This document shows positions 23,610 to 48,920 of a stretch of 64,000 nucleotides of DNA, one piece after another. Origin of the DNA: Agromyces sp. 3263 (GTDB taxonomy: Bacteria; Actinomycetota; Actinomycetes; Actinomycetales; Microbacteriaceae); assembly GCF_031456545.1 (NCBI RefSeq), contig NZ_JAVDUV010000001.1:310001-374000 (forward strand), read 5' to 3'. The first letter of the stretch is position 1. Each line of letters starts with the position of its first letter. Under the pieces are notes generated by a model. It was not told the DNA's origin. It ran no database searches and was given only the letters and a program-made list of their open reading frames with translations. A program made the position numbers and the translations under genes.

Positions 23610-24611
23610 TCAGACCGGCTGCACGAGGTCGCGCAGCACGTCCTGCGCTCCGCGGCCGTAGCGACTGTAGGCGCCCGAGCGCCACTCCCGCCACACTGGC
23701 GTCAGGCGCCGCAGGCGCCGTGGCGGGATGGCCTGTCGCATGAGCTCGTGATCGAGCTTCGCACGCGCCTCGGACTCGACGTGCGCATCGCCCGTGGCGA
23801 TGGAGGGAAGGCGCTCGGCGAGGTCCTCGGCCCGGGCGAGCAGCTTGGCGTTCCGCTCGGTGCGCGGCTCACGCAGCCGGGCGACCCTGCCGCCCGGCCC
23901 GAGGCGGGCTACGCCGATCTGGTTGCCACCGTGCTGGCGATAGTCGATCAGCGGCTCGGCCACCACGGCGATGCCGCCACCGACGGACGCGACCATGGCG
24001 AGCCATTCGTCGTGCACCCAGCTCGCCGGGAACGGAGCGGCCCGCTCGACCAGCGACCGCGAGACCATCATCGTCGCGCCGGTCAGGACGTTGCGCTTGA
24101 GGAGCTCTTCGAAGGCGGCATCCGAGGCCAACCGACGGCGAAGTCCATCGTCGACGCCGAGCGTCTCGAACAGCGACGAGCCGATCGGTTCGTCGGCGTC
24201 GTCGACGAGCCGGGCCTCCGCCGCGACGAGATCGAGGCCCGGCCGTGCCGCGAATTCGCGCAGCGCACGCTCGACGCGGTCGGGATGCCACACGTCGTCC
24301 TGGTCGCACAGGGCGATGAGGTCCCCGGATGCCGCCCGCAGCGCCTGTTCGAAGTTCGCCGTCACGCCGAGCGCGGTGGAGTTGTCCAGGACGACGAGCT
24401 CGGGCGTCGAGGCATCCGTCGCGGCCCGGTGAGCGGCGACGACCTGCCGCGCCAGCGCCGTGGTGTTGTCTGACGACGCATCGTCGCTGAGCACGATTTC
24501 GTTGACCGGCGACGTCTGCGCCAAGATGCTCTCGAGCTGCTGCGGCAGGAAGCGCACCCCGTTGTGAGTACCGAGTGCGACGGAGACCCGGGGCGCCGTC
24601 TCGGCGGACAT
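23610..24611 (-). CDS. Glycosyltransferase family 2 (rhamnosyl/galactosyltransferase-like)
   Basis: 333 residues. GT-A fold: SVALGTHNGVRFLPQQLESI (10-29), EIVLSDDASSDNT, LIALCDQDDVWHPDRVERAL containing the DxDD-type metal site (about 95-115), and an acceptor-side WVHDEWLAMVASVGG. The DQDDVW form is common in rhamnan and O-antigen rhamnosyltransferases, but the sugar is not certain. It is soluble or peripheral at the inner membrane face. The ATG overlaps the upstream stop (TGATG), so it is translated after the GtrB-like gene. Confidence 0.88.
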   Translation of the reverse strand: MSAETAPRVSVALGTHNGVRFLPQQLESILAQTSPVNEIVLSDDASSDNTTALARQVVAAHRAATDASTPELVVLDNSTALGVTANFEQALRAASGDLIALCDQDDVWHPDRVERALREFAARPGLDLVAAEARLVDDADEPIGSSLFETLGVDDGLRRRLASDAAFEELLKRNVLTGATMMVSRSLVERAAPFPASWVHDEWLAMVASVGGGIAVVAEPLIDYRQHGGNQIGVARLGPGGRVARLREPRTERNAKLLARAEDLAERLPSIATGDAHVESEARAKLDHELMRQAIPPRRLRRLTPVWREWRSGAYSRYGRGAQDVLRDLVQPV

Positions 24612-25786
24612 CAGCGGTTCCGCTTGAGGCCCACGTTCAGCACGCCGAGGAACATGCCGGCCATGATGGTCTGCGCGCCGAGCATCATCAGCAGCGCGGC
24701 GAGCACCGCCGTGCGCATCGTGCTCGAGGGGTCGAGGGAGCCGAAGCCGCTCGCCGCCCAGGTCGCGAACTGGCCGATCGCGATGCCGAGACCGATGAGG
24801 AAGAGGAAGAGTCCGACCAGCGCTCCGCTCTCGAGGCTGATGCGTCGCTCGAGCCGGTCGAAGTTGCGAGACCTGGGTATCCGGAATCCCTCGTGCTGCG
24901 CGTAGATCTTGGTGAGGATGGCGAACAGCACCGATTGGTAGCCCACGACCGTCAGGGCCGCGAGGTACACCTGGCTCGACACGTCGAAGCCCACGTCGCC
25001 CAGGATGATCGGCCCGAAGCTGATGAACAGCGTGCCGAGCAGGCCGAGGAAGAAGGCGACCGCGCCCGGAATCAGGAAGAGCCAGCGCGGACTGAAGATC
25101 AGCAGGAAGCGCAGGTGACGCCAGCCATCGCGCCAGCTGCGCAGGTGCGGCGGGCGGCTGCGGCCGTCCTTGTCGAGCGTCGTCGGCACCTCGGAGACCC
25201 GGAGGCCGCCGAGCGTGGACTTGACGACGACCTCGCTCGCGAACTCCATGCCGGTGGTCTGCAGGTGGAGGTCGAGGATGGCCTGACGGTTGAACCCGCG
25301 GAGTCCGCAATGGAAGTCCTTGATCGGCGACCTGAAGAGCACCCGACCGATCCAGGAGAGCACCGGGTTGCCGAGGTACTTGTGCAGCGGCGGCATCGCG
25401 CCCTCGGCGATGCCGCCTCGGAAACGGTTGCCCATGACGAGCTGGTCTCCGGCCCGGAGCCGCTCGACGAAGGGGTCGAGCTTGGAGAAGTCGTAGCTGT
25501 CGTCGGCGTCGCCCATGATGACGTACTCGCCGCGCGCGGCGTCGATCCCGCCCATGAGCGCGCTGCCGTACCCCTTCGCGGGCACGTCGACGACGCGGGC
25601 TCCATGCGCCCGTGCGATGTCCTGGGAGCCGTCGGTCGAGCCGTTGTCGGCGATGATCACCTCGCCGATCACCCCGCTCCGGGCGAGGTATCCCTGTGCC
25701 TTGTCGATGCAGACGGCGAGCGTCTCGGCCTCGTTGAGGCACGGCATGACGATCGAGAGTTCGATCGTCTCGGTGGAGGTGGGCAT
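24611..25786 (-). CDS. Polyprenyl-phosphate sugar synthase-like GT2 with C-terminal membrane helices
   Basis: 391 residues. The GT2 domain (about 8-235) has LSIVMPCLNEAETLAVCIDK, EVIIADNGSTDGSQDIA and VIMGDADDSYDF as the DxD region, then IKDFHCGLRGFNR, which is typical of dolichyl/undecaprenyl-phosphate mannose or glucose synthases (DPM1/GtrB). Four membrane helices follow (about 255-385). The product is predicted to be polyprenyl-phosphate hexose, the donor for GT-C enzymes outside the membrane. Four GT-C-like proteins occur to the right. The ATG at 25786 begins directly before the conserved core. Confidence 0.88.
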   Translation of the reverse strand: MPTSTETIELSIVMPCLNEAETLAVCIDKAQGYLARSGVIGEVIIADNGSTDGSQDIARAHGARVVDVPAKGYGSALMGGIDAARGEYVIMGDADDSYDFSKLDPFVERLRAGDQLVMGNRFRGGIAEGAMPPLHKYLGNPVLSWIGRVLFRSPIKDFHCGLRGFNRQAILDLHLQTTGMEFASEVVVKSTLGGLRVSEVPTTLDKDGRSRPPHLRSWRDGWRHLRFLLIFSPRWLFLIPGAVAFFLGLLGTLFISFGPIILGDVGFDVSSQVYLAALTVVGYQSVLFAILTKIYAQHEGFRIPRSRNFDRLERRISLESGALVGLFLFLIGLGIAIGQFATWAASGFGSLDPSSTMRTAVLAALLMMLGAQTIMAGMFLGVLNVGLKRNR

Positions 25787-25841
25787 GGCGAGGGGTCCTG
25801 TCGTACGCGGGGCAGCGTCCCCATCGTACAGAATGGGTGCA

Positions 25842-26714
25842 ATGTCTCTGGGTCTCGTGGTCTCGACGCTCGGCCGTGCCGAACCGCTCGAGCGTCTCCT
25901 GCGATCCCTCGCCCCCCAACTCCGAGCCGACGACCGCGTCGTCATCGTCGCGCAGGACCGCGTCGAGGAGGTCGAAGCGCTCGCGGACCGGTACCGCGGT
26001 GCCGGCACGGTCATCGATGTCACGACCTCCGAACGCGGAGCGTCCCGCGGTCGGAATGCCGGCGTGGCCGCGCTTCCCCCGGGTGATCGACTGCTTCACT
26101 TCCCGAACGACACCACCTGGTTTCCCGACGGGAGCGTCGATGCCATCCGCCGGGCGGCCGATGGCATCGCGGTGGGCGCGTTGACGGTCGCGGACGAGCA
26201 CGGACCGAAGTTCCGGCTGCCGCCGGCGGGGACCCCCCTCGACCGCTGGAACGCCTGGAGCGTGATCGAGATGGGCCTCCTCATCCGCAGGTCGGTGTTC
26301 GACGAGGTCGGCGGGTTCGATCCCGACCTCGGTACCGGTGCGCCGAGTCCCTGGCAGGCCGGGGAGGCCACCGACCTGCTGCTCCGGCTGGCCGCGCTCC
26401 GGCCTGACCTCGCCGCGGGATTCCACTGGCTTCCACCCGACGTCGCTGTGGGCGGCGTGTCGGACCCCCAGGGGCTGTCCACGGCGGAACGGCGACGGAA
26501 GCTCCGAGCCTATGGCCGGGGCATGGGACGGGTGGTGGCGCGGCATCCGTACCCGTGGTGGTGGCGATTCGCGTTCGTGTCCGGCGGACTCGCGTTCGGA
26601 CTGCGACACCGGTCCACCAACACCCCCGGCGACGGGTGGCCCGTCTTCCTCGGGCGATCCGAGGGCATACTCGGGCGGGCGTTCGGCGGGCCCACGACGG
26701 CGGTGACGAGATGA
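25842..26714 (+). CDS. Glycosyltransferase family 2
   Basis: 290 residues. It begins SLGLVVSTLGRAEPLERLLR, then GRNAGVAALPPGDRLLHFPNDTTWFPDG; the FPND-T replaces the usual DxD. A C-terminal half has VGGFDPDLGTGAPSPWQAGE, an acceptor pattern seen in exopolysaccharide GT2 enzymes. The ATG at 25842 is preferred; another ATG is 9 bases upstream. It heads a plus-strand operon of three genes joined by ATGA and GTGA overlaps (25842-28986). The sugar is unknown. Confidence 0.82.
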   Translation: MSLGLVVSTLGRAEPLERLLRSLAPQLRADDRVVIVAQDRVEEVEALADRYRGAGTVIDVTTSERGASRGRNAGVAALPPGDRLLHFPNDTTWFPDGSVDAIRRAADGIAVGALTVADEHGPKFRLPPAGTPLDRWNAWSVIEMGLLIRRSVFDEVGGFDPDLGTGAPSPWQAGEATDLLLRLAALRPDLAAGFHWLPPDVAVGGVSDPQGLSTAERRRKLRAYGRGMGRVVARHPYPWWWRFAFVSGGLAFGLRHRSTNTPGDGWPVFLGRSEGILGRAFGGPTTAVTR

Positions 26715-27883
26715 CCGAGCCGATGCCGGGGCCGCTGCGCCTCCGCCGTGCTGCGCTCAGCCTCATCACGCTCCTCGGCGGCGTGTCGCTAGCCGTCATC
26801 CCCGCGGCGACCGTCTCGATCTCCTCGCGCCTCTTCACGGTCGACGAGCAGGGATTCCTGGCGGTCGCCGTGCTCGTCGCGACCTTCGCAGGTCAGCTCA
26901 CATTCGCGGTCGTCGTGGAGTCCCGCCTGAGCTCCGCCGCGACCGAGCGTCGCGTCGTCTTCCCTCTCTGGCTCGCCGCCATCTCGGTCGTGACCGCCAT
27001 CGTGCTCGCCGTCATCCCGCCGAACGCCGTCGCCCTCGCCGTCGGTCTGCCCATCCTGATCGCCGCTCTCGAGGTGGGTCGCGGGGTCTCGGTGGCAGAA
27101 CGCCTCGATCGACGCGAGATCGTGGCGTCGGTGGCCGTCGGCGTGGGTGCACTGGTCGGAGTCCTCGCCGGATTCGCCGACCAGCAGTGGGCACTGATCC
27201 CGCTGGTCGTGGGCATCGCGGCGGCGACGTGCGTGCGCTGCATGCCCGTCACGCACCACGCGAGCCGCCCCGAGCCGGCCGTGATGGGGTGGGTCGTCGC
27301 CGACACCGCCATCACCGGCGCGGTGTATCCGCTCCTCAACGCGATGATCCTCGCGTTCCTCGGTCCGGCCGATGCGGTGCTGTTCACCTCCATCTCGACC
27401 GTGTCCGGCCTGCTCGCAATCCCGCTCAACTTCCTCCGCCTGCGGCTCCTCAAGGAGCACTCGCGCCTCGACATCGTCGTGTCCGCGGCATCCGTTGGGG
27501 CGGCCGTGGTCGCGTTGCTCGTGCTCGAGGTGACCGGGGTCTTCGGCTTCGTGTTCGGCACCGCCTGGACCGAGTCGGCGACCCTCGTGCCGCTCCTCCT
27601 CGCCTGCGCCTGGCGTGCGGCATCGCTGGCGACGACGATCCCGTTCGCGGCGCTTCGCCGCGCGGGCGAGGTGCGCCTGGTCACCGGCCTGCGCGCCGCG
27701 GTCTCGGTGCTGACCTTCGCCCTGGCCGCGATCGGCCTGTCGCTGCACAGCCTTCCCGCCGTGTTCCTCGGCCTCCTGGTGGCCGAGCTCGCCTCGGCGG
27801 TCGTGTACGAGGTGGCCCGCCGTCGGCGCCTCGCGCGCGGCATTCGCGAGGCCGCAGCGGTGGACGCGGGTGGTGACGCGTGA
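26711..27883 (+). CDS. Wzx/MATE-like polysaccharide flippase (short)
   Basis: 390 residues, with 10 to 12 predicted membrane helices and little else, from a start overlapping the preceding glycosyltransferase stop. The N-terminal pair of helices with SRLFTVDEQGFLAVAVLVAT and the loop NFLRLRLLKEHSRLD are in the style of the oligosaccharide flippase family, though it is shorter than typical 12- to 14-helix members. Position between two glycosyltransferase genes supports export of a lipid-linked oligosaccharide. A purely structural assignment, so another transporter role is possible. Confidence 0.65.
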   Translation: MTEPMPGPLRLRRAALSLITLLGGVSLAVIPAATVSISSRLFTVDEQGFLAVAVLVATFAGQLTFAVVVESRLSSAATERRVVFPLWLAAISVVTAIVLAVIPPNAVALAVGLPILIAALEVGRGVSVAERLDRREIVASVAVGVGALVGVLAGFADQQWALIPLVVGIAAATCVRCMPVTHHASRPEPAVMGWVVADTAITGAVYPLLNAMILAFLGPADAVLFTSISTVSGLLAIPLNFLRLRLLKEHSRLDIVVSAASVGAAVVALLVLEVTGVFGFVFGTAWTESATLVPLLLACAWRAASLATTIPFAALRRAGEVRLVTGLRAAVSVLTFALAAIGLSLHSLPAVFLGLLVAELASAVVYEVARRRRLARGIREAAAVDAGGDA

Positions 27884-28986
27884 GGCGCGTGCTCGTCGAC
27901 CTGCTGTTCTTCACCGGAACCAAGGGCGGCATGGAGTCCTACGTCCGGGAGGTCTACTCGCGGTTCTCCGTCGACGATCCCGAGTTCGAGTACGTCGGGT
28001 ATGCATCGACCGAGCTCGCGGCGACCGACGTGTCGTGGTTCCCGGGACGCGTCATCGACTCCGGGATCAGCGGCGAGGATCGAGTGGCCTGGGCACGGGG
28101 CGAACTGCTCGCCGTCGCCCGGGCGGCCCGTCGCGAGCGCGCCGACCTCGTGCACTGCCCCGCGAACTTCGGGCCATGGCGGTCTCGCGTGCCGGTGGTC
28201 CTCACCGTCCACGACCTGCTCGCGTTCCGCCACCCCGAGTTCGTCCCCGGGGCCCATGCCCGTGCCCTCCGGTGGATGGTGAGGACGGCGGCGCGCTCCG
28301 CTGCGGCGCTCCTCACCGTCAGCGGCGCCTCGCGCGACGACCTCGTCGCGTGCCTCGGTGTCCCATCCCGGCGAATCACGGTGACGCCGCTCGCGGGTTC
28401 GCGACCGCTCGACACCACTGCGCCTCGCGCGCGCCGCGACGACCTGCTCCTGGCGGTGGGCAATCGGATGCCGCACAAGGGCTTCGAGACGCTCCTCGAG
28501 GCCCTCGCGCGGATACCCGTTCCCGATCGGCCACGTCTCACGATCACCGGTAGCCACGGTGACGACCCGCTCGCTCCGGTCGTCGAGCGTCTCGGCCTCG
28601 CGCGATTCGTCGACCTCCGCGGTTGGCTCTCCCGCGACGAGCTCGAGGCCCTCTACGGCGAGGCGACGGCGCTCGTCTTCCCCACGCGGTTCGAGGGCTT
28701 CGGACTCCCGCCGCTCGAGGCGATGTCCCGCGGCTGCCCTGTGATCGTCTCCGACCTTCCGGTCATGCACGAGGTCGCGGGCGAAGCGGCCCTCTACGTC
28801 GACCCGACCGATGCCGACGCCATCGCACGGGGCATCCGGGCGCTCCTCGAGGCGCCCGACGAGCGCGAGCAGATGTCGCGAGCCGGCCTGGCCCGGGCGG
28901 CCCGATTCTCGTGGGAGGCGACGGCGGAAGCCACCCGCGCGGCGCTGGTCCGGGTGTTCGAGGACGTGGAGGCTAGCGGCCGCTGA
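27880..28986 (+). CDS. Glycosyltransferase family 4
   Basis: 368 residues, GTG overlapping the flippase stop as GTGA. GT-B fold: the N-terminal domain has FFTGTKGGMESYVREVYSRF and VPVVLTVHDLLAFRHPEF. The C-terminal nucleotide-sugar domain has LLLAVGNRMPHKGFETLLEA, FPTRFEGFGLPPLEAMSRGC (the E-x7-E motif) and PVIVSDLPVMHEVAGEAALY. This is the mannosyl/rhamnosyltransferase-like class. The 3' end overlaps the end of the convergent GT4 gene by 14 bases. Confidence 0.9.
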   Translation: MRRVLVDLLFFTGTKGGMESYVREVYSRFSVDDPEFEYVGYASTELAATDVSWFPGRVIDSGISGEDRVAWARGELLAVARAARRERADLVHCPANFGPWRSRVPVVLTVHDLLAFRHPEFVPGAHARALRWMVRTAARSAAALLTVSGASRDDLVACLGVPSRRITVTPLAGSRPLDTTAPRARRDDLLLAVGNRMPHKGFETLLEALARIPVPDRPRLTITGSHGDDPLAPVVERLGLARFVDLRGWLSRDELEALYGEATALVFPTRFEGFGLPPLEAMSRGCPVIVSDLPVMHEVAGEAALYVDPTDADAIARGIRALLEAPDEREQMSRAGLARAARFSWEATAEATRAALVRVFEDVEASGR

Positions 28987-30142
28987 TCGCCCGCCACCGG
29001 GCGACGAGTTCGTCGACGGACCGCCCGAGCGACCGCTCGCGTCGCTCGCGGTCGAACCACTCGGACGTGGATCGTCGGAGGACGGACCCGCCTCGGACGG
29101 CGCGGACGATGGCGTCGCCCAGGATCTCGGCGTCGACCGACGCGGCGACGTATCCGTTGACGCCGTCGACCACGAGTTCCGCCGCGGCGTTGTCCTCGCC
29201 GGCGACGACGACCGAGGGCGTCCCGTGCGACGCCGCCTCTGCGACCACGAGGCCGAACCCCTCCCTCGCGGACGGGTTCACGAGCACCGCCGCATCGGCG
29301 AGGAGCGCCTCGAGCTCCCCCTCTCCGACACGGCCGGCGAACCGGATCACGTCGGCGACGCCGGCCAGCTCGGCGGCCCGGCGCGCCGCCCCGGTCTCGG
29401 GGCCCGAGCCGGCGACGACGGCTTCGAGATCGGGCAGGACCGATCGCGCCGACGCGATCGCAGCCGGCAGCGAGGCCAGTCGCTTGTCGGGGATGTGCCG
29501 TCCGACGAAGAGCGCGGTCGGCGCTCCCTCGCGCCGCGCCGGCGCATACGATGGGTGGACCAGGTCGACGAGGCCGAGGACGATCGGATCCGCACGGCGG
29601 CGGTATCTGCGCAGCCGCGCTCCGGTGAAGCCGCTGTTGACCGTCTGGATGCGCCCGACGTGCACGCCGACGGACTGGAGCACGAATGCGATCGTCCCGA
29701 CGCCGAGCCCGGAGTAGTCGCGCCACTTGCGCCACGACCAGATCTCGAGCCAGTCGGTCGCCACGACGGCGCGGCTCCCGAGCAGGGCGAGACGAACCGC
29801 GAACACGTTGAGCACCGGCAGCGCCGCGACCACGACGAGGTCGTAGCCCCGCCGGTGACGCACGAAGTGGCGGAACAGGGCGAGCGCGAACCCGACGGCG
29901 CTCGAGGTGGTGCGGGTGCCGTCGGCATCGGCGATCTCGCCGCTCCATACGCCGGCGACCGCGAACTCCGCGCCGGGGCCGGGCCTGCGACCCGTTCGAG
30001 TCACGTAGGTGACGCTGGCGCCGCGAGCGGCGAGCAGCTCGGCCATGCGTCGGTACACCCGTTCGCCACCGCCCGTGTCGATCGGGAAGAGGCAGTCGTA
30101 GGCGATCGCGACGCGCGGCTCGTGCCGTCGGGAATCAGCCAC
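28973..30142 (-). CDS. Glycosyltransferase family 4
   Basis: 389 residues from a GTG at 30142 (VADSRRHEPRVAIAYDCLFP), which overlaps the DUF2142 stop by 8 bases. The N-terminal domain has DCLFPIDTGGGERVYRRMAE. The C-terminal GT-B domain has GAPTALFVGRHIPDKRLASL, NPSAREGFGLVVAEAASHGT (E-x7-E) and VVVAGEDNAAAELVVDGVNG. It acts on a nucleotide sugar at the cytoplasmic face. Coupled translation with the GT-C-like DUF2142 protein suggests both act on the same chain. Confidence 0.88.
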   Translation of the reverse strand: MADSRRHEPRVAIAYDCLFPIDTGGGERVYRRMAELLAARGASVTYVTRTGRRPGPGAEFAVAGVWSGEIADADGTRTTSSAVGFALALFRHFVRHRRGYDLVVVAALPVLNVFAVRLALLGSRAVVATDWLEIWSWRKWRDYSGLGVGTIAFVLQSVGVHVGRIQTVNSGFTGARLRRYRRRADPIVLGLVDLVHPSYAPARREGAPTALFVGRHIPDKRLASLPAAIASARSVLPDLEAVVAGSGPETGAARRAAELAGVADVIRFAGRVGEGELEALLADAAVLVNPSAREGFGLVVAEAASHGTPSVVVAGEDNAAAELVVDGVNGYVAASVDAEILGDAIVRAVRGGSVLRRSTSEWFDRERRERSLGRSVDELVARWRAISGR

Positions 30143-31760
30143 GGACCGGGGCCTCGACGTGGGGCGCCACCGCACGCGACGGGCGGTCGATCGCATCGCG
30201 GCGCGCGATCCGCTCTGTGGCGATGCCGACGAGCGCGATCAACGCGAGGGATGCGAGTCCGTAGCCCACCACGAGGGCGGGCCACCCGAGTGGCGGCTGC
30301 CATTGCGGCGCCGTCACCATCTCGGCCAACGGAGCCTTCGCGATGACGTACCGGACGAGGACCAGCGCGAAGGCGAGGACCCCGTACGACGCTATGAGCG
30401 ACGTTGCGATCCACGCGGCGCGCGGAGCGAGGACCTGGACGGCCGGAGCATCCCGGCTCAGCAGCCATCCCGCGACGACGGTGATTCCCAGGTAGAGGAA
30501 GAGGCCGTACCGGCCCTGCCAGATGATGCCCGTCTGGTGCACGCTGTAGCCCTGCACGAGCGCGGGCACGAGCACCGCCGCGATCACCACGGTGATGAGC
30601 GAGAGCGCGCTTCGGCGGCGGATCGCGACGAAGGCGAGCAGCACCAGCAGCGCGAACGGCGCGATGACGAGCCAGTAGGTCCACACCGGCAACGGCGTGT
30701 CGAACCACCCGAAGTAGCCGATCGCCTGTTGGACGTAGTCGGGCGTCGTGCGGATCGTGTGCGCGAACCCCTGCAGGAAGGTGCCGTTGACGAGCGGCGC
30801 ATCGGATGCCTCGGCCTGGTTCGAGAGGCTCCCGCCGGAGAGCGTCCAGCCGAGCGAGAAGAGCCCGCCGGCGGCGATGGCCGCCAGCCACCAGTAGGTC
30901 CGGCCGGTCGTGAAGAGCCGCTTCACCGGTACCCACCCGCTCACCAGGAAGCAGAGCGCGACGATGATGACGAGCCACAGCGGGCCGAGCGCCCTGGCGT
31001 TCACGAGCATGATCGACGCGAGGGTGACGCCGCTCCAGAGCGCGGTCCGTGAGAGTCCGGGGCGAGCGGCGCCGTCCTCGAATGTCTGCAGCAGCGTGAG
31101 CACCCCCGCCCAGACGGCGACGGCCGACGCGAACTCCACGCCGTTCGGATTGACGCCGCCGATCAGGTACATGCTCATCGGCGCTGCGGCGAACGCGACG
31201 CCGAGCGGCATCCATCGGGCGCCTCGGGCGGTCACTGCGGTGAGGAACGCCCACGCGAGGAATGCGGCGCCCAACAGGGAGCTCGCGATCCGCATCGAGT
31301 AGACCGCCGCATTGCCGTCGAAGATGAGGCTCGGCCACCCCACGAGGTAGTAGTAGATGGGGTTGTAGGCACCGACCCAGGTGTTGAACCAGTCCTGCCC
31401 GCCCTCATCCCCGAGCTCGATGCCGTTGCAGCCCGCAGGCACCCCGGGACGCGTTGCGAAGCACATCATGTGCGAGTGGTACTCGTCGCCCTCCGGCAGG
31501 TCGACCACGATGTGCTTCACCCCGGGCAGCGTGTACCCGATCACCTGGCCGCGAACCTGGGCGATGGCCTTCACGGCGTGGGCGTTCTCGTCCGGAACGC
31601 TGAACACGGGCGACGCGAGCGACCAGAGGATGCCGAGCAGCGCGAAGACCGCGAACGCCGACAGGAACGTGACGGAGGCCGATCCTCGTCGGGCCCGGGG
31701 GTCGCGGGCCTGCTCCTCGAGCACTGCGGTGTCGTCCGAGCCGCCGGGAAGTCCAGTCAA
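30135..31760 (-). CDS. DUF2142 membrane protein, GT-C-like (paralogue 1)
   Basis: 541 residues from a TTG at 31760 with AAAGAGA before it. About 11 membrane helices. After the first helix the extracytoplasmic loop holds PDENAH (D57, E58, H61), then YNPIYYYLVGWPSLIFDGNA. DUF2142 proteins are thought to be polyprenyl-phosphate-sugar-dependent transferases of the PMT/GT-C superfamily; the early Asp-Glu pair fits that. It resembles the protein at 40021-41598 over its full length. TAGACT at 31834-31839 on the minus strand is a candidate -10 box. Confidence 0.85.
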   Translation of the reverse strand: MTGLPGGSDDTAVLEEQARDPRARRGSASVTFLSAFAVFALLGILWSLASPVFSVPDENAHAVKAIAQVRGQVIGYTLPGVKHIVVDLPEGDEYHSHMMCFATRPGVPAGCNGIELGDEGGQDWFNTWVGAYNPIYYYLVGWPSLIFDGNAAVYSMRIASSLLGAAFLAWAFLTAVTARGARWMPLGVAFAAAPMSMYLIGGVNPNGVEFASAVAVWAGVLTLLQTFEDGAARPGLSRTALWSGVTLASIMLVNARALGPLWLVIIVALCFLVSGWVPVKRLFTTGRTYWWLAAIAAGGLFSLGWTLSGGSLSNQAEASDAPLVNGTFLQGFAHTIRTTPDYVQQAIGYFGWFDTPLPVWTYWLVIAPFALLVLLAFVAIRRRSALSLITVVIAAVLVPALVQGYSVHQTGIIWQGRYGLFLYLGITVVAGWLLSRDAPAVQVLAPRAAWIATSLIASYGVLAFALVLVRYVIAKAPLAEMVTAPQWQPPLGWPALVVGYGLASLALIALVGIATERIARRDAIDRPSRAVAPHVEAPVRG

Positions 31761-36049: not shown

Positions 36050-36095
36050 ACGGCGTCGCCGGCGATTCAGCACGGTGCTCCCGACCGGCGGACGA

Positions 36096-37349: not shown

Positions 37350-37355
37350 CCGACC

Positions 37356-38417: not shown

Positions 38418-38451
38418 GTGCACTCCCCTTCAGGACCTCGACAACCCCACG

Positions 38452-38457
38452 AGCCTA
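38452..38457 (-). promoter_or_regulatory. -10 box TAGGCT for the epimerase-flippase pair
   Basis: TAGGCT on the minus strand overlaps the end of the acyltransferase gene. The start would be near 38445, giving a leader of roughly 28 bases that contains the AAGGGG ribosome-binding site. The pair can thus be transcribed apart from the acyltransferase. Confidence 0.4.
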
Positions 38458-39708: not shown

Positions 39709-40020
39709 AAGCAGCTTCCATTCGCCGGCGAACTGTCCATCGGCGCTGACGAAACGTGGGCGCAACTCACCCGCTCAGCGCACTCAGTCTACGGGAGCCG
39801 CGCAGCATGATCACTTCCCGACTCGCATCGGGAGGGATCGAGAACCGTTCGACGCCGAATGCGAGGATGAGCAGCGCGGATTGGCCTATCCTTGAGGTCG
39901 TTTGCGCGGATCGACTTTCGAGCGCGAGCGACTCGACTCTTCGCACCAGCGTCGGTCGGTACCCAGCCGTGCCGCGGCGAATCGAATGACGCGAGGCATC
40001 GGCGGACGATGGAGGACTCA
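39709..40020. other. 312-base divergent intergenic region
   Basis: No gene is supported here. On the minus strand TAGACT (39786-39791) is a candidate -10 box for the acyltransferase, with a 70-base leader. On the plus strand TATCCT (39887-39892) is one for the DUF2142 gene, with a leader of about 120 bases. A frame open from 39892 joins the DUF2142 gene, but its N-terminal part looks non-coding (Arg-rich, no pattern). No strong inverted repeat was found. Confidence 0.5.
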
Positions 40021-41767: not shown

Positions 41768-43972
41768 ATGGCGCGACTGCCGCATAGGGCCGACGTGGTC
41801 GTAGTCGAAAGCGCACAGCCCAGGCCGGCACGTGCCAAACGCTCGTGGATAGGGTCGGGTCGGCCTGCCCGCCACCGGCATCGGGCGGCATTCCTGCCCG
41901 AAGTGCAGGGCCTTCGCGCACTCGCCGTGGCGCTGGTCGTCCTCTACCACCTCTGGCCCGCCCGATTGCCCGGCGGCTACATCGGCGTCGACGTCTTCTT
42001 CGTGATCTCCGGCTTCCTGATCACCGCCCACCTCGTTCGCGACGTGGAGCGCACCGGCCGCGTCGCGCTGAGCACATTCTGGGCCAGACGGATCCGGCGG
42101 CTCCTTCCCGCCGCGTTCACCGTGCTCGCCGCGTCATGCGTCTTCACCCTGCTCGTGTCGCCGCCCTCGGTCGTGGAGGACAGCCTGCGCCAGATCGGCG
42201 CGGCGTCCGCGTATGTCCTGAACTGGCTGCTCGCAACGGAGTCGATCGACTACCTCGACGCGGCGAATCGCCCCACTCTCGTGCAGCACTTCTGGACGCT
42301 GTCGGTGGAAGAACAGTTCTACATCGTGATGCCGTTGCTCATCGCCGTCGTCCTGACTCTTGTGAAGGTCGCCTCCGGTCGACGGGGGACCGCGCCAAGC
42401 GCGCGAACGCGCCGTCGATGGATCTCGATCAGCCTGGTGGGGGTCTTCGGGGCCTCACTGACCTATTCCGTCATCGCGACCGCCGTGGCGCAGCCGTTCG
42501 CGTTCTTCGACACCTTCGCCCGCGCGTGGGAATTCGCTGCCGGCGGGCTCCTCGCGATGTTCGCCGCCGCCGCGCCCCACCTCCTGTCGCGACTCCGTCG
42601 CACCCGGCTCGTTTCGAGCGGGGCGCTCGGATGGGCGGGCATCGGCGTGATCATCGGTGGCGCACTCCTGCTCAACGGAGGATCGCCGTTTCCGGGCTGG
42701 GTCGCCATGTTCCCCGTGCTCGGCGCCCTCGCGGTGATCTCTGCCGGCAACCCGAGCGGCCGGAGGGCGCCCGGGCGGGTGCTGGGGCTGCGCGCCGTCC
42801 AATCGGTGGGTGACCTCTCGTACGGGATCTACCTCTGGCATTGGCCGCTCATCATCGCGTTCCCAGTGATGTTCGCCCGGTCCTACTCGACCGCCGAGAG
42901 CGTGGGAATCGTCGGGGCGGCCATCGTGCTGGCCATCGCGACGAAGTACCTCATCGAGGATCCCTTCAGATACTGGCGCGGCTTCGTACAGCACCGCCGC
43001 GTCGCGTTCGCATTCGCCGCGGCCGGCACGGCACTCTTCATCATGGTCGCGACCGTGCAGGTGTCGGCCATCGAGGAGCGACGTGACAACGCGGCAGCGG
43101 TCGCGGAGCAGATGCTCGCGACGCAGGCCGAGTGCTTCGGCGCCAACGCCATGCTCGGCGGGCGCGACTGCCCCGATCGTCTGGCCCTTCCTCCCGGCAC
43201 CGACTTGGCGTTCGCGGCCCACGACCTCGACCCCGATTGGTGCCTGACGGGACTCGCGGAGGCGTGGCGCACCTGCGAGTACGGCGATCCCGCCGGTACG
43301 GCTGGGCATCTGGCCCTCGTCGGCGACTCGCACGCCGCGGCCCTCATCGACGCCTTCGACGAGTACTTCCGACAAGTGGGATGGCGCGTGACGACCTTCG
43401 TGCGCTTCGGCTGCCCCGGCCTCTCCGAATCACCGGTCGAGATCGGTTCCAGGACACCGATCGAAGAGCAGGCGTGCGCCGACTGGTCGGCACGCGTGAC
43501 CGACGAGCTCGTCTCCTCGGAGAGCATCGACGCCGTCGTCTACACGAGCTTCACGAGCGGATATGCGGAGGACGGCGTGCCGGAGGCCTCGCAACTCCAC
43601 GCCAGCGACATCGAAGCGACGTGGAGCCGGGTCATGGACTCCGGGAAGACGGTCGTCGCCGTCCGCGATATCCCCCGAACGAGCCGGGTCAACATCCCCA
43701 ATTGTCTCGAGGCCAGCACGGTCCGTTCCGCTCCGTGTGCCATCCCCAAGGCATCGGGATTCGTGGACGATCCGCAAACGCAGGCTTTGAAGGCCCTCGG
43801 CGGACGTGTCCCGCTGGTCGATCTCACCGACGCGTACTGCGACGAGTCGACGTGCTACACGGTCATCGGCGGCGTCGTCGTGTACGCCGACGACAACCAC
43901 GTGAGCCACACGTATGCGATGTCGCTCGCGCCGTTCCTCGGTGCGCGCGTGGAGTCCGCGCTTCCCCGCTGA
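41768..43972 (+). CDS. OafA-type acyltransferase with C-terminal SGNH domain
   Basis: 734 residues. The membrane acyltransferase-3 domain (about 38-400) begins FLPEVQGLRALAVALVVLYH, with GGYIGVDVFFVISGFLITAH, ARRIRRLLPAAFTVLAASCV and HFWTLSVEEQFYIVMPLLIA. The extracytoplasmic SGNH domain (about 440-734) has GDSH near 519 and DDNHVS near 707, the two catalytic blocks. It is predicted to O-acetylate a surface polysaccharide. The start cannot lie further upstream than 41726, because an in-frame stop is at 41723-41725; a GTG at 41795 is possible. Confidence 0.93.
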   Translation: MARLPHRADVVVVESAQPRPARAKRSWIGSGRPARHRHRAAFLPEVQGLRALAVALVVLYHLWPARLPGGYIGVDVFFVISGFLITAHLVRDVERTGRVALSTFWARRIRRLLPAAFTVLAASCVFTLLVSPPSVVEDSLRQIGAASAYVLNWLLATESIDYLDAANRPTLVQHFWTLSVEEQFYIVMPLLIAVVLTLVKVASGRRGTAPSARTRRRWISISLVGVFGASLTYSVIATAVAQPFAFFDTFARAWEFAAGGLLAMFAAAAPHLLSRLRRTRLVSSGALGWAGIGVIIGGALLLNGGSPFPGWVAMFPVLGALAVISAGNPSGRRAPGRVLGLRAVQSVGDLSYGIYLWHWPLIIAFPVMFARSYSTAESVGIVGAAIVLAIATKYLIEDPFRYWRGFVQHRRVAFAFAAAGTALFIMVATVQVSAIEERRDNAAAVAEQMLATQAECFGANAMLGGRDCPDRLALPPGTDLAFAAHDLDPDWCLTGLAEAWRTCEYGDPAGTAGHLALVGDSHAAALIDAFDEYFRQVGWRVTTFVRFGCPGLSESPVEIGSRTPIEEQACADWSARVTDELVSSESIDAVVYTSFTSGYAEDGVPEASQLHASDIEATWSRVMDSGKTVVAVRDIPRTSRVNIPNCLEASTVRSAPCAIPKASGFVDDPQTQALKALGGRVPLVDLTDAYCDESTCYTVIGGVVVYADDNHVSHTYAMSLAPFLGARVESALPR

Positions 43973-44032
43973 CGACGCACGTCCTGCGCGGGAGCGGAGG
44001 CCGCCCCGGATCGGAAGCCGCCGCTCGCGCGG

Positions 44033-46072
44033 TCACCGAGGCGACTCGAACCGATAGATGTGCAGGGTGGCGTCGCCGACGCCGTCGACCTGCGTCAGCG
44101 GGACCAGGCATTCATAGTCCTCGAGCGAGGTCTCCGAGACCACCCATGCCGGATCGGCTCGCTCGGCGACCACCGGGTTGCACGGGGAGATCGACAGCTG
44201 CATGAGGCTCCCGGTCACCCGCTCGATCCGGGCCGCCGATGGGTCCGGATCCGGGGTCCACTCGTACTGCGCGTAGTTGTTCCAGAGCTCCTCCTGCGCC
44301 GGCGCCAGCTCGCCCATGAGTTGCGCATCGGGATACGGCGTCGTGCCGGACACGCTCTGGAAGCCGGCGGCACGCGCGCGCGCGACCGTCGCGAGGTCGC
44401 CGAACACCAGCGTTCGGGGATTCTCGCCGGCGTCAGCGACCGAATGCAGCTCTCGCACCAACGGGTCATCGGAAAGCGGGGCGATACCCTGCTGCAGCGG
44501 GTTCACGAGCGACCAGCTCACGAAGGCGTAGACTGCGAGACCGGCCGCCGCGGGAATCGCCCATCGTTTCCACAGGAGCAGCGCGAAGAGCCCGGTGAGG
44601 ACGAACCCGCTGAGTGCGGCGAGCGTGGTCGGCACGAGCTCGGCGTTCCACGGTAGGTTCTCGGCGGACCAGACCGTTCCGACGGCGCCGATCACGGCGG
44701 CCGCGCCCAGCCATGGCCAGCTCCACACCCGAGGCGATGAGCGGACCGCCGTGGCCGCGGCCATCATGAGCACCGAAGCGAAGCCGATCGCCAACGTGGT
44801 GCGCGACGGCTGCACCCGCTGCAACTGCGTGATCACCCCGAACCACGAGGGGAGCGGCAGGAACGTCCACGCGAGCAGCAGCGCGATGAGACCAGCTGGG
44901 AGCAGGATCGTCCAGACCGGCTCGGGCACCTGATCATCCGCGCCCCTGGATGGGACCGGGACGCCGGCTGCCCGCCGGCGACGTCGATCGCGCCACGCGA
45001 GCCCGATGGCGGCCGCCACGACCAGCGCCAGCACGGGGAACGGAATCCAGCTCGACGCCGCCTCGGAGAGGTTCGAGAACTGACCGCCCTCCCCCCCGGC
45101 TCCGAGCGAAGCACCGGCGTCGCCGACCATCCAGAAGTTCAGCGGCGCGCCCGTGATCACCGCCAGGGACCCGCCGCCGGCGACAGTGCGCCGTTGCCCC
45201 GGGTAGTACGTTCCGGCGACCGCAGCCGCCGCCGCGCTGTGCTGCACGATCCACACCGAGAGCACCGCCGCCGCGCCCGCGATCGCGATGCCGGACGTCC
45301 AGAGCACACGTCGCCACGCGATGCGCCGATCCAGCGCGAAACCGAGGCAGATCGCCACGATGACGAGTGCGAGCGAGTACTGCCACGGGGGATACAGGAC
45401 GAGTGCGAGCGCACCGGCGGAGCATGCGGCCGCCACCGAGAGGAGGGCCGCAGCGACCCTGCTCGAGGTCGTCCACGCCCCGATGATGGCGGCACCCGCC
45501 AGCGCGGCGAAGCCAACGAGCAGGTCCGGCATCCACCAGGCCGAGTACGGGGTGAAGGTCGCGGCGATCGCCAGCACGGCCGAGAGCCCGGGACGCCTGG
45601 TGATGAGCCCGATGAGGGCGAACGTGCCCCAGAGGCAGACCGCGAACGGGAACCACCAGTTCCAGGACAGGCCATGGCTCGGGTCCAGCAGGACGAATCC
45701 CCAGTCCTGGGGCTTCAGCGACGTCGACCAGTCGAGCGTCGGTCCTCCGCCGGCGGCGACCGCCTGGTCGACGTCCGCCAGGCCGATCCAGGCGGACGTG
45801 GGCATCCCCTGCTGCGCCGATGAGAGGGCGTTCGGCGTCTCGAGGAGGTACTCGTCGCTGCGAACGCCGAGCGGATGACCGAGCAGGAGCCCGTGCTCGG
45901 ACGGGGACTCGGAGAACGCGCCGATCGAGGATCCGTTCAGGTCTGCCGCGACCATGGAGACGAGCATCACGAGCACGATGCCGGGGAAGATGAGCCATCG
46001 CCACGCGGGGAGCGGCGATCGAGGGTCGTCGGCCGAACGGGAGCGGATGCGCGGCGATCGAAGGGGCGGCAT
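44033..46072 (-). CDS. Large polytopic membrane protein, GT-C-like, family not recognised
   Basis: 679 residues from an ATG with GAAAGG 5 bases upstream. First helix about 26-45; the first loop has GHPLGVRSDEYLLETPNALS with D73 and E74; then about 11 more helices; then a soluble extracytoplasmic domain of some 140 residues (about 540-679) with VFGDLATVARARAAGFQSVS. The overall plan (helix, loop with Asp-Glu, helices, external C-terminal domain) is that of GT-C glycosyltransferases. No exact family is recognised. It sits beside GT4 and ABC-exporter genes. Extended -10 TGCTAGACT lies at 46105-46113. Confidence 0.75.
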   Translation of the reverse strand: MPPLRSPRIRSRSADDPRSPLPAWRWLIFPGIVLVMLVSMVAADLNGSSIGAFSESPSEHGLLLGHPLGVRSDEYLLETPNALSSAQQGMPTSAWIGLADVDQAVAAGGGPTLDWSTSLKPQDWGFVLLDPSHGLSWNWWFPFAVCLWGTFALIGLITRRPGLSAVLAIAATFTPYSAWWMPDLLVGFAALAGAAIIGAWTTSSRVAAALLSVAAACSAGALALVLYPPWQYSLALVIVAICLGFALDRRIAWRRVLWTSGIAIAGAAAVLSVWIVQHSAAAAAVAGTYYPGQRRTVAGGGSLAVITGAPLNFWMVGDAGASLGAGGEGGQFSNLSEAASSWIPFPVLALVVAAAIGLAWRDRRRRRAAGVPVPSRGADDQVPEPVWTILLPAGLIALLLAWTFLPLPSWFGVITQLQRVQPSRTTLAIGFASVLMMAAATAVRSSPRVWSWPWLGAAAVIGAVGTVWSAENLPWNAELVPTTLAALSGFVLTGLFALLLWKRWAIPAAAGLAVYAFVSWSLVNPLQQGIAPLSDDPLVRELHSVADAGENPRTLVFGDLATVARARAAGFQSVSGTTPYPDAQLMGELAPAQEELWNNYAQYEWTPDPDPSAARIERVTGSLMQLSISPCNPVVAERADPAWVVSETSLEDYECLVPLTQVDGVGDATLHIYRFESPR

Positions 46073-46164
46073 TCGGGCCTTTCTGGGGGCGGCGACGAAT
46101 CTGGAGTCTAGCAACGGTGCCCAGCTCAGCTTGGCGACGCCCGCCGCGTGCTAGTCTCCCTGCG
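46073..46164. promoter_or_regulatory. Divergent promoter region with two extended -10 boxes
   Basis: On the minus strand TGCTAGACT (46105-46113) serves the membrane protein, giving a leader of about 26 bases. On the plus strand TGCTAGTCT (46149-46157) ends 7 bases before the GTG of the GT4 gene, so that mRNA is likely leaderless; no ribosome-binding site is present. Both boxes share the TGC extension. Confidence 0.55.
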
Positions 46165-47544
46165 GTGACCGAGCCGAAGAGCGAGAACGCCGCATCGAAT
46201 CAGGAACCACGACCGCGGATCCTGGTCTGCACACCCGATTCCCTCGGCGCGCAGATGGCCGGCCCGGCCATCCGCGCACTGGAGATCGCCAAGGTTCTGG
46301 CACAGCAGAACGAAGTCCGTCTCGTCTCCACCCAGCAGGCGGATCTCTCGCATCCCGACTTCGAGGTCGCCTTCGCCGATGACACTTCGTTGCGCGATCA
46401 CGCCGAGTGGTCCGACGCCGTCGTCTTCCAGGGGCACGTGATGGCGAGCCACCCGTGGTTGGCGGACGAGCAGTACGTGCTGGTGGCGGACATCTACGAC
46501 CCGATGCACCTCGAAGTGCTCGAGCAGACGCGATACCTCACCGATGAGGATCGCCAGCACGTCTCCCAGCTGACGACGGAGGTGCTCAACGCCCAGATCG
46601 AACGAGCGGACTTCCTGCTCTGCGCCTCCGAGAAGCAGCGCGACTTCTGGCTCGGACAGATGGCGGCCCTCGGCCGGATCAACCCGTTGAGCTATGACGC
46701 CGACAACACGCTCCGGTCGCTCCTCGCCGTCGCTCCGTTCGGGATCGGCGACCAGACCCCGGTGCAGCGTCGTCACGGCATCAAGGGTGCCGTCGAGGGG
46801 ATTGCACCGACGGACAAGGTGGTGATCTGGGGCGGTGGCATCTACAACTGGTTCGATCCGATCACCCTCATCCGCGCCGTGCATCAGCTCTCGGAGCGCC
46901 ATCCCGACCTTCGACTGTTCTTCCTCGGCGTGGCGCACCCGAATCCGAACGTCCCCGAGATGGAGATGTCGGTCAACGCACGACGAGTCGCGGTCGAGCT
47001 CGACCTGCTCGATCGGGTCGTCTTCTTCAACGAGGGTTGGGTTCCCTACGACGAGCGTGCCGATTACCTCCTCGACGCCGACCTCGGCGTCAGCACCCAT
47101 TTCGACCACCTCGAGACCGCATTCAGCTTCCGTACGCGGATCCTCGACTATCTCTGGGCCGGATTGCCGATCGTCAGCACCGACCACGACACGTTCGCGA
47201 CCATCGTGCTGAGCGAGCAGCTCGGCCGGGTGGTGCCGCCAGAGGACGTCGACGCGCTCTCGACGGCACTGGAGGAGTGCCTGTACAGCGAAATGGAGAC
47301 TGCCCGGCTCCGCGAGAACGTCCGTCGTTACGCCGAGCGCATGCGTTGGTCGAATGTGCTCCAGCCGCTCGTCCAGTTCTGCAGCGCTCCGAAGCCGGCG
47401 GCGGACCGCGGCGTGCGGTCCGTCCGCGCCGAGCAGCGGAACGCGATGCGGATTCGGATCGAGAGCCTCGAGCAGAGCACGTCGTGGCGCATCACGAGGC
47501 CGCTTCGGTGGGTGGCGCGGCGGCGGTCTCGAACCGGGGCTTGA
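46165..47544 (+). CDS. Glycosyltransferase family 4-like (GT-B fold)
   Basis: 459 residues from a leaderless GTG (VTEPKSENAASNQEPRPRIL). PDSLGAQMAGPAIRALEIAK is the N-terminal acceptor motif. LVADIYDPMHLEVLEQTRYL follows, then the donor domain with VVIWGGGIYNWFDPITLIRA, and TRILDYLWAGLPIVSTDHDT at the nucleotide-sugar site, where the usual E-x7-E is reduced. The C-terminus RIRIESLEQSTSWRITRPLR is a tail shared by many surface-polysaccharide glycosyltransferases. It is next to the ABC exporter, so it may extend the exported chain. Confidence 0.86.
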   Translation: MTEPKSENAASNQEPRPRILVCTPDSLGAQMAGPAIRALEIAKVLAQQNEVRLVSTQQADLSHPDFEVAFADDTSLRDHAEWSDAVVFQGHVMASHPWLADEQYVLVADIYDPMHLEVLEQTRYLTDEDRQHVSQLTTEVLNAQIERADFLLCASEKQRDFWLGQMAALGRINPLSYDADNTLRSLLAVAPFGIGDQTPVQRRHGIKGAVEGIAPTDKVVIWGGGIYNWFDPITLIRAVHQLSERHPDLRLFFLGVAHPNPNVPEMEMSVNARRVAVELDLLDRVVFFNEGWVPYDERADYLLDADLGVSTHFDHLETAFSFRTRILDYLWAGLPIVSTDHDTFATIVLSEQLGRVVPPEDVDALSTALEECLYSEMETARLRENVRRYAERMRWSNVLQPLVQFCSAPKPAADRGVRSVRAEQRNAMRIRIESLEQSTSWRITRPLRWVARRRSRTGA

Positions 47545-47546
47545 AT

Positions 47547-48920
47547 TCAGACCGCGGGGATGAGCAGCACGCAGATGAAGCTGAGCACTCCCAGCCCGGC
47601 CAGCACGACCGTGGAGCTTCGTCGCCGCCGCACGAGGACGGCCGCGCACCCGATGAAGATCGGGTAGAGCGAGAGTCCGTACCGTTCGGGCAGCGCGAAG
47701 TACTCCCCCGTGGACGCGATGATCGACAATGCGAGCAGGGGGCCCACGACCAGCGCCATCAGCAGTGTTCCGTAGGCGAGCGCCGAGGTCCGCGTGCCGG
47801 GGCGAGCGACCGCCGCGAGCCCCAGGACGCCCGCCACCGCCACCCACTGCGAGATCCACGACGCGACGATCGCCGTCCCGCTCGGTGCGCCGACGCCGAG
47901 GCCCGAAGAGGAGACGTACTTGAAGACGAGGCCGAGGAGGCCGTCGACGGTGAGGGCCTGCTCGGTGTTCTGCTCGGGCGAGACTCCGAGTGAGAGCTGC
48001 TCTCGGATGATCACCCAGATCACTTGGGCGAGGAGCGCCGCCACGACCATTCCGATGGCGACCAGCAGCCGCCGATCGGTGCGCAGGGACCGCCATCTGC
48101 CGCCGCGAGGAGAAGCCAGCGACGTGTACACGGCGAGCAGGGCCAGCGAGATCGCGACCGCACCGATCGCCGCGAAGTTCTGGAACTTCAGCCAGATGAC
48201 GATGGGCGCCGCCGCCACCAACCACCACCCCGACTGGTCGCCCTGCACGAAACGGATGCCCAGGAACAGCATCAGGGCACCGGCGAGAAGTGTCGGGGCA
48301 TCGGTGCTGAGGTACGTCGTGTACCAGTAGGCCGGCAGCGACCCGACGATGAGCAGCGTGATCCCCGCCGAGGACCACGGCCCCAGTCGCAATCGCCTCA
48401 GGGCGAAGAAGAAGAGCAGAGCGGCCGCCGCGAGCCACAGCGTGCCCACCAGCCGGCCGGCCTGCGTCGGGGAATCGACGACCCCCGTCCAGAGCAGCGG
48501 CTGGGCGAACGCCCTCGTGACGGCGAAGTACAGCGGGGTGTAGATATCGGCCGACGTCATGCCCGCCATGGGGAACCGGCTGTCGTCGGACAGGATCGAC
48601 TCCGCGGTCGTGCAGCGGTCGTCGGGTACCGGCAGGAGGATCCGCAGACCCCTGCAGCCGAGCTCCTGTCGCGCGAAGTCGCCCACCTCCTCGCCGTGCC
48701 GGACCACCCCCTGGTCGAAAACCTTGTCGAAGTAGTCGACGTACACGTACTCGTCGATCGGGGAGAGGGATTCATGCTGGGGGACATGGACGATACCCAC
48801 GAGCAGGCTCGCGATGACGAGGAGCGCCGGCGGAAGAACTCGTGTCACCCACGCCCGACCGCCGACGAGCCGCTTCGACGAGCTGCGTCTGTCGGTCGAG
48901 TTGGTCGTCGTCTGAGTCAC
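47547..48920 (-). CDS. Polytopic membrane protein, GT-C-like, family not recognised
   Basis: 457 residues from a GTG preceded by GAGAG. First helix about 30-48; the first loop PQHESLSPIDEYVYVDYFDK has D56 and E57; the loop continues with a Cys pair (GCRGL and DRCTT) and YTPLYFAVTRAFAQPLLW. About ten more helices follow and there is no large C-terminal domain. The design is that of a GT-C transferase of the PMT/ArnT type, but no named family is certain. It converges on the GT4 gene with two bases between the stops. Confidence 0.72.
   Translation of the reverse strand: MTQTTTNSTDRRSSSKRLVGGRAWVTRVLPPALLVIASLLVGIVHVPQHESLSPIDEYVYVDYFDKVFDQGVVRHGEEVGDFARQELGCRGLRILLPVPDDRCTTAESILSDDSRFPMAGMTSADIYTPLYFAVTRAFAQPLLWTGVVDSPTQAGRLVGTLWLAAAALLFFFALRRLRLGPWSSAGITLLIVGSLPAYWYTTYLSTDAPTLLAGALMLFLGIRFVQGDQSGWWLVAAAPIVIWLKFQNFAAIGAVAISLALLAVYTSLASPRGGRWRSLRTDRRLLVAIGMVVAALLAQVIWVIIREQLSLGVSPEQNTEQALTVDGLLGLVFKYVSSSGLGVGAPSGTAIVASWISQWVAVAGVLGLAAVARPGTRTSALAYGTLLMALVVGPLLALSIIASTGEYFALPERYGLSLYPIFIGCAAVLVRRRRSSTVVLAGLGVLSFICVLLIPAV

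Follow-up and report, generated by a model that had tools for sequence, protein, structure and literature searches.

Positions 310001-374000 of contig 1 of the soil actinobacterium Agromyces sp. 3263 (genome size 4.07 Mb), a stretch of 64,000 nucleotides referred to below as the window, contain a gene cluster that probably directs the attachment of several kinds of side chains, outside the membrane, to a rhamnose-rich wall polymer, as in the Gac, Wps, Scc and Epa systems. This reading is carried by four polytopic proteins with a conserved acidic pair, here called A to D and considered candidate GT-C glycosyltransferases, by two candidate polyprenyl-phosphate sugar synthases, and by the presence of rmlABCD, an ABC exporter and a LytR-CpsA-Psr (LCP) ligase in one locus, in the same order in a related genome (G022). 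All genes named in a preliminary description of this DNA were present, and their base composition was of coding type. Genes are referred to by their first coordinate, and those central to the reading are as follows.

24611-25786, minus strand: candidate polyprenyl-phosphate sugar synthase 1, a GT2 protein whose membrane tail has four predicted segments at the C-terminus (PF00535, E 4e-25)
34944-35681, plus strand: candidate polyprenyl-phosphate sugar synthase 2, DPM1-like GT2 (PF00535, E 1e-23; 5mlz, E 2e-9)
35678-36049, plus strand: DUF2304 small membrane partner, GacJ-like, three membrane segments (PF10066, E 8.6e-24)
30135-31760, minus strand: A, DUF2142, candidate GT-C glycosyltransferase of block 1 (PF09913, E 1.3e-40, 139.9 bits, cut-off 30.1)
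40009-41598, plus strand: B, DUF2142, candidate GT-C glycosyltransferase of block 2 (PF09913, E 2.3e-40, 139.1 bits, cut-off 30.1)
44033-46114, minus strand: C, DUF7657 with DUF7654, candidate GT-C (PF24677, E 3e-67; PF24672, E 1e-8)
47547-48920, minus strand: D, divergent DUF2142 relative, candidate GT-C (hhalign to DUF2142, 98.7%)
48982-51030, plus strand: large GT2 matched in two stretches, putatively for backbone synthesis (PF00535, E 1e-50)
51075-51971, plus strand: ABC exporter permease, Wzm-like (PF01061, E 4.8e-13)
51992-53203, plus strand: ABC exporter ATPase with Wzt_C domain (PF00005, E 1e-22; PF14524, E 8e-14)
57060-60483, both strands: rmlA, rmlC (minus), rmlB, rmlD (plus), dTDP-rhamnose supply (PF00483, PF00908, PF16363, PF04321)
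63170-63964, minus strand: LCP ligase, candidate for attachment to peptidoglycan (PF03816, E 3e-24)

In the proposed pathway, dTDP-rhamnose made by rmlACBD would be used by cytoplasmic GT2 and GT4 enzymes to build a backbone, which would be exported by the Wzm/Wzt transporter and tied to peptidoglycan by the LCP protein. Single sugars would be loaded onto polyprenyl phosphate by 24611, and by 34944 with the DUF2304 protein; some of these lipid-linked sugars would be lengthened by GT4 and GT2 enzymes of two blocks, carried across the membrane by the polytopic proteins 26711 and 36096, and transferred as side chains onto the backbone by A and B, with C and D attaching further branches from the same or other lipid-linked donors. 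The acidic pair, in an external loop, would form the catalytic site, and sugar transfer would invert the anomer, as described for the GT-C enzymes identified to date (PMC11754754). The rmlACBD genes, together with rhamnose among the wall sugars reported for another species, Agromyces aureus (PMC5217419), suggest a rhamnose polymer (no wall rhamnose is given in the available portion of PMC3855984); Wzm and a Wzt with a Wzt_C domain suggest ABC export, and the LCP gene suggests attachment to peptidoglycan. Three PF00953 genes lie elsewhere in the genome, one of which is probably MraY and another of which could start the chain. A wider reading, in which four GT-C enzymes of two superfamilies branch one rhamnose polymer, cassette-swapped blocks set the surface combinatorially, and DUF7657 (the EpaP position included) is an unrecognised GT-C family specific to rhamnose-rich wall polymers, is put forward tentatively and is on balance doubtful.

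DUF2142 proteins and the acidic pair

D remained below the PF09913 cut-off, with no Pfam match at E 0.1 and no NCBIfam or PHROGs family, and was placed by profile comparison. A D profile (5 sequences) was aligned by hhalign to a DUF2142 profile (22 sequences) at 98.7% (E 2.3e-16) across 350 columns, the acidic pairs of the two lying in register, and D56, R413 and Y414 (D numbering) were invariant in a joint alignment of 22 D and DUF2142 sequences. PMT_2, which we take to be the family of ArnT-like GT-C enzymes, was searched in 40 genomes and matched over its curated cut-off inside DUF2142 proteins of three of them (G068, G072 and G073), and below cut-off in the G022 counterpart of D (E 5.4e-4). 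By hhalign, the D and DUF2142 profiles each aligned to a PMT_2 profile (8 sequences) at 94.5%, over 126-133 columns behind the acidic pair, while an unrelated 12-segment membrane family used as control gave 0.4-0.6%. Because of these PMT_2 matches and the difference from the control, A, B and D are very probably GT-C enzymes. The three form one superfamily, and C belongs to another family. PDB sequence searches with the D and DUF2142 profiles returned no match or weak unrelated ones. In the DUF2142 tree, A falls in a clade of 9 rows with support of 100/100. A separate DUF2142 clade with the motif PD[DE]D[FY]H (11 rows, support 100/100; L007-L014, L016, L022 and L029) leaves A and B outside.

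The acidic pair is present in all four membrane proteins, and the residues given in the preliminary description were found correct for the starts used there: D57/E58 in A (30135-31760), D39/E40 in B from start 40021 (D43/E44 from start 40009), D73/E74 in C from start 46072 (D87/E88 from start 46114) and D56/E57 in D (47547-48920). A single acidic pair means little, since 24 of 119 other polytopic open reading frames (ORFs) in the DUF7657 loci L083-L161 also have one within 35 residues after the first membrane segment; it is conservation that counts. Whether the pair is kept in homologues had been named beforehand as a point on which the idea could fail, and it was found to be kept: among DUF2142 relatives the first Asp is present in 31/31 and the pair in 30/31, among DUF7657 relatives the pair follows the first membrane segment in 14/14, and in the D family, of five sequences only, it is present in all. 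These counts left out the window's own copies (L001, L021, L048) and fragments or split matches (L006, L046, L052); a larger DUF7657 set (57 rows) is biased, one search pattern having contained the acidic motif. The loop with the pair may well face outside: basic residues ahead of the first membrane segment, judged by eye, favour an N-in orientation in A, B, C and D, and a crude charge count is clearly N-in for D (17:8) and a near tie for the other three.

Sugar-lipid synthases and branch blocks

The preliminary description had proposed two polyprenyl-phosphate sugar synthases, and both candidates held up on their GT2 family membership, DPM1-type PDB matches, the membrane tail of 24611 and the DUF2304 partner of 34944. 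Searched with phmmer, 24611 matched dolichol-phosphate mannose synthase (5mlz, E 1.5e-11) and sll0501 (5ekp, E 3.5e-4), and its NCBIfam match was AglJ (E 2.2e-38, 132 bits, below the cut-off of 325); the best NCBIfam match of 34944 was PpgS (E 3.7e-28, 98.5 bits, below the cut-off of 370). A third synthase within 23610-63147 was sought and dropped, no other GT2 or GT4 protein there having a GtrB-like membrane tail (23610, 33974 and 28973 have one hydrophobic stretch each). Outside the cluster, 11981-15148 encodes a protein of 1055 residues that starts with a GT2 domain and has some ten membrane segments.

Two blocks of genes would build, move and transfer side chains. Block 1 (26172-31760) comprises a weak GT2, the polytopic 26711, two GT4 genes and A; block 2 spans 34944-41598 and, besides the synthase, the DUF2304 gene and B, holds the last three genes below.

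26172-26714, plus strand: weak GT2-like protein, first gene of block 1 (PF13632 at E 0.086 only; conserved neighbour of 26711)
26711-27883, plus strand: polytopic protein, 11 membrane segments, block 1, in the position of a putative flippase (no Pfam match)
27880-28986, plus strand: GT4 glycosyltransferase, block 1 (PF00534, E 1.8e-28)
28973-30196, minus strand: GT4 glycosyltransferase, block 1 (PF00534, E 5e-23)
36096-37349, minus strand: polytopic protein, 12 membrane segments, block 2, in the position of a putative flippase (Wzy_C, E 0.01, below cut-off)
37356-38423, minus strand: NDP-sugar epimerase/dehydratase-like protein, SDR (PF01370, E 4e-45)
38455-39765, minus strand: acyltransferase-3 membrane protein (PF01757, E 2.7e-19)

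In a panel of 100 related genomes, own genome included, homologues of 26711 (E<1e-100) were found in 17, the own genome again included and all of the same genus. A DUF2142 match lies 3.7-4.0 kb from the 26711 homologue, start to start, in 13 of these 17; in the other four (G013, G021, G040 and G051, in 170-840 contigs) the two are on different contigs or DUF2142 was not found. All nine A-clade genomes carry a 26711 homologue, and Cryobacterium sp. Y29 (L107) holds the five block 1 genes as a group. Missing from G022 are a homologue of 26711 and, within its 40 kb, the whole of block 1 along with synthase 24611 and the SucT-like gene described below; the rest is retained in order at 50-90% identity: the DPM-like, DUF2304, 36096 (61% identical), SDR, acyltransferase and DUF2142 genes, C, D, the large GT2, Wzm, Wzt, rml and LCP, the shared order running from a Wzy-type gene pair to LCP. 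The exception is the DUF2142 protein in the place of B in G022, which has A as its best match, at 35%. Block 1 is thus present or absent as a unit between species and behaves as an insertable branch module, because G022 lacks it and keeps the rest in order. Block 2 has the predicted parts of the type GacI/J, flippase and GT-C. Whether 24611 pairs with A and belongs to block 1 is unsure: its homologue adjoins A in G031, L113 and L126, and the pairing is in doubt because 24611 homologues occur without a DUF2142 label in the seven loci given below.

The positions of 26711 and 36096 suggest that both may be flippases. About 3.5 kb past the window's end, at L196:4048-4713, the genome's only GtrA-type protein is encoded beside purK, and this protein could serve as a flippase for single sugars. 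On the opposite strand, a gene for a DarT-like domain protein (L196:4652-5545; PF14487, E 1.9e-17) overlaps the end of the one for GtrA.

DUF2142 has been reported in the putative polymerase WpsI, and also as a WpsJ-like marker (PMC12599335), and GT4 genes that build oligosaccharides adjoin A; A and/or B might accordingly be WpsI-like polymerases of lipid-linked repeats, with another enzyme linking a long side chain or a separate polymer. We consider this unlikely, and two adjacent O-antigen ligase/polymerase-type proteins with Wzy_C (20884 and 22245, at 20884-23570 on the left edge; best blastp 95 and 98% in Agromyces humi, L138), already present upstream, speak against such a role. Transfer of side chains by A and B is retained as the preferred reading.

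DUF7657, its gene context and alternative explanations

C is matched by PF24677 at 227.6 bits (curated cut-off 26) and carries a C-terminal domain after its last membrane segment. The GT-C catalytic layout had been ascribed to all four proteins; at profile level a GT-C relationship is supported for A, B and D and not for C, for which hhalign gave no usable link to PMT_2 (1.4%). C aligned to DUF2142 at 85.9% and to D at 91%, and a further comparison with a deeper profile gave 38%, with the acidic pair outside every aligned stretch. That C could nonetheless be a GT-C enzyme is suggested by a conserved R-x-D-E motif, which follows its first membrane segment, and by its size, tail domain and gene context.

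Contigs were scanned with a DUF7657 profile, giving 108 relatives, of which the best 80 were retained as 79 loci (L083-L161; L109 and L111 are two copies from one genome). Genes in these loci were labelled by best blastp match at E 1e-6, so that labels are possibly loose and rmlB may cover other SDR proteins. In the relatives panel, DUF7657 was found in 15 of 100 genomes, own genome included, all of the same genus. Twenty-one of 25 Enterococcus loci run rmlA, rmlC, rmlB, rmlD, DUF7657 and then Wzm and Wzt; of the others, L086 is truncated, whereas L132, L137 and L151 are ordered otherwise. In L135 just two ORFs of more than 130 residues separate rmlD from Wzm, namely DUF7657 and a protein of 418 residues, polytopic as judged by eye. 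Here rmlD is presumably epaH, and the exporter genes presumably epaL/M. In Enterococcus faecium, epaP and epaQ are reported to occupy the site of epaI-K (PMC3433357), and lipid-linked N-acetylglucosamine is described as being moved onto the EPA rhamnan by either EpaP or EpaQ (PMC8327497). Because of the Enterococcus gene order and this published position, DUF7657 is probably the EpaP family, as judged by gene position. In L132, L137 and L151 a DPM-like/DUF2304 pair lies ahead of the ABC exporter, with DUF7657 further downstream.

These gene orders bear on a further possibility, that the GT-C enzymes decorate a Wzx/Wzy polymer, a glycolipid or exported proteins, with the ABC and rml genes serving a separate polymer. 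PMT-type GT-C enzymes can act on proteins, and the Wzy_C-type proteins 20884 and 22245 stand at the left edge of the cluster, both of which would fit another target. The ordering of DUF7657 with rml and ABC genes in Enterococcus argues against it, however, as does the order of rml, ABC, LCP, DUF2304, a DUF2142 gene, C and D shared with G022, and we judge this explanation quite improbable.

Of the 79 loci, 13 have a sugar-lipid synthase-like GT2 no more than 0.5 kb from DUF7657, and 27 have one no more than 3 kb away. In Streptococcus such a GT2 stands directly upstream of DUF7657 in four of five loci (L121, L141, L149 and L159; the fifth is L116), a likeness by position to Streptococcus mutans, in which sccP is described as directly upstream of sccQ (PMC11754754). 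In L116, from a Streptococcus metagenome-assembled genome, a DUF2142-like ORF (8336-9760; own profile, E 5.6e-9) lies between a synthase-like GT2 and DUF7657. DUF2304 was found in 2 of 7 DUF7657 genomes searched. DUF7657 as the usual streptococcal side-chain enzyme was considered and dropped, since just 5 out of 58 Streptococcus genomes had a PF24677 match at E 0.001 (4 over cut-off, and one of those genomes chosen for having DUF7657) and GacL is listed as PMT_2 (PMC8035078).

C might instead be a membrane protein of accessory or polymerase-like function in which an RxDE motif is conserved. This would agree with its missing PMT_2 link, with links to D and DUF2142 that are partial and exclude the acidic pair, and with 52 of 79 DUF7657 loci lacking a labelled synthase within 3 kb. 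The pair after the first membrane segment in all 14 relatives, the C-terminal domain, the 13 loci with an adjoining synthase-like GT2 and the probable EpaP position (PMC3433357, PMC8327497) nevertheless favour a glycosyltransferase, and a non-GT-C role seems to us a minority possibility.

Several results count against side-chain attachment by A to D in the form preferred here. The cluster holds four GT-C candidates and two clear synthases, and in seven loci (L088, L091, L099, L103, L120, L128 and L138) homologues of 24611 (73-80% or more) lie beside Wzy-type genes or C with no DUF2142 label. In the 40-genome search PMT_2 matched D weakly (E 7.7e-4, below curated cut-off) and left A and B unmatched at E 0.001; for C there is the PMT_2 result given above, and solved GT-C enzymes were not matched by the DUF7657 profile in a PDB sequence search. 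One DUF2142 relative (L031), the sole miss in the conservation count, has Asp-Val and no second acidic residue, and the crude charge count is a near tie for A (12:13), B (12:15) and C (15:14). Neither 26711 nor 36096 matched a transporter family (Pfam to E 10, and PDB for 36096), and a comparison of their two profiles gave no match. A labelled synthase within 3 kb is missing from all 21 Enterococcus loci of the rml-DUF7657-ABC order, no DUF2304 was found in the five Enterococcus and Streptococcus genomes among the seven DUF7657 genomes searched, and 20884 and 22245 could mean that a Wzy-made polymer is also or instead involved.

Known systems and other genes of the locus

The system had been described at the outset as analogous to but different from known arabinan and mannan pathways. 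The difference stands: A to D match no Pfam or NCBIfam family of mycobacterial arabinan or mannan GT-C enzymes, rhamnose genes take the place of the arabinan pathway, and the nearest systems are instead the rhamnose wall polysaccharides of streptococci, lactococci and enterococci. The mycobacterial systems (Emb, AftD, MptA/B, PpgS) employ polyprenyl-phosphate donors and a GT-C logic, and PpgS is, below cut-off, the best NCBIfam match of 34944.

Precedents for side-chain addition are described for SccN/SccM and SccP/SccQ (PMC11754754) and for GacI/J/K/L and WpsA/B/G/J (PMC10821137). Beside these, Agromyces has unusually many candidates for attaching branches. With Gac of Streptococcus pyogenes the Agromyces cluster shares a DPM1-like GT2 with DUF2304, a mark of GacJ (PMC8327497), an adjacent polytopic protein, a GT-C candidate, rhamnose supply, an ABC exporter and LCP; it differs in having DUF2142 and DUF7657 where GacL is PMT_2 (PMC8035078), and in having several GT-C candidates, acyltransferases, and GT4 genes that would make the side chains longer. 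Lactococcal WpsA/B-WpsG-WpsJ (and WpsI) likewise combines a lipid-sugar synthase and small partner, elongating glycosyltransferases, a polytopic protein and a DUF2142 protein, whereas Agromyces, an actinobacterium, has such a block twice, and C and D besides. In Streptococcus mutans, SccN/SccM and SccP/SccQ form a system in which two sugar-lipid synthases feed more than one GT-C on one polyrhamnose; Agromyces has four GT-C candidates, and the likeness is one of gene roles. In enterococcal Epa, rmlD is followed by DUF7657 and, as seen in L135, by a polytopic protein before the ABC exporter begins; that EpaP is its DUF7657 member is presumed from position.

The side-chain logic itself is thus already known (PMC8035078, PMC10821137, PMC11754754). 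As far as the literature was searched, the following is new: a single actinobacterial locus with four GT-C candidates, the placing of the D family as a divergent branch of DUF2142, the conservation of block 1, and the association of DUF7657 with rhamnose loci in both Firmicutes and Actinobacteria. Published DUF2142 work that was found was not actinobacterial by title, Microbacteriaceae were not named with GT-C wall enzymes among the matches listed, and the search returned no paper on DUF7657 and none joining Agromyces, rhamnan and cell wall. The main text of PMC7188991 does not mention epaI, epaJ, epaK, GT-C or GacL. The cluster would extend the streptococcal, lactococcal and enterococcal side-chain logic to Agromyces-like actinobacteria and gives testable roles to two families of domains of unknown function, DUF2142 and above all DUF7657. 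The latter is tied to the enterococcal epa locus, for which the manner of backbone sugar addition was reported as unknown in 2021 (PMC8035078).

The other genes of the cluster are listed below; a PHROGs search gave nothing useful.

23610-24557, minus strand: GT2 glycosyltransferase (PF00535, E 1.9e-19), with homologues near DUF7657 in other genera
31945-32736, plus strand: methyltransferase-like protein (PF13489, E 2.3e-17)
32784-33926, minus strand: GT4 glycosyltransferase (PF00534, E 6.5e-27)
33974-34900, plus strand: GT2 glycosyltransferase (PF00535, E 8e-18)
41768-43972, plus strand: acyltransferase-3 fused to SGNH, SucT-like (PF19040, E 1.6e-34; PF01757, E 3.5e-32)
46117-47544, plus strand: GT4 glycosyltransferase (PF13692, E 5e-12)

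The likeness of 41768 is to the mycobacterial succinyltransferase SucT (NCBIfam, E 1.2e-83, 281.8 bits, below the cut-off of 1275). Also inside the cluster, 54991-56976 encodes a protein with three cell wall binding 2 (CWB2) stretches that may bind this cluster's polymer; CWB2-like proteins are labelled in 17 of the 79 DUF7657 loci.

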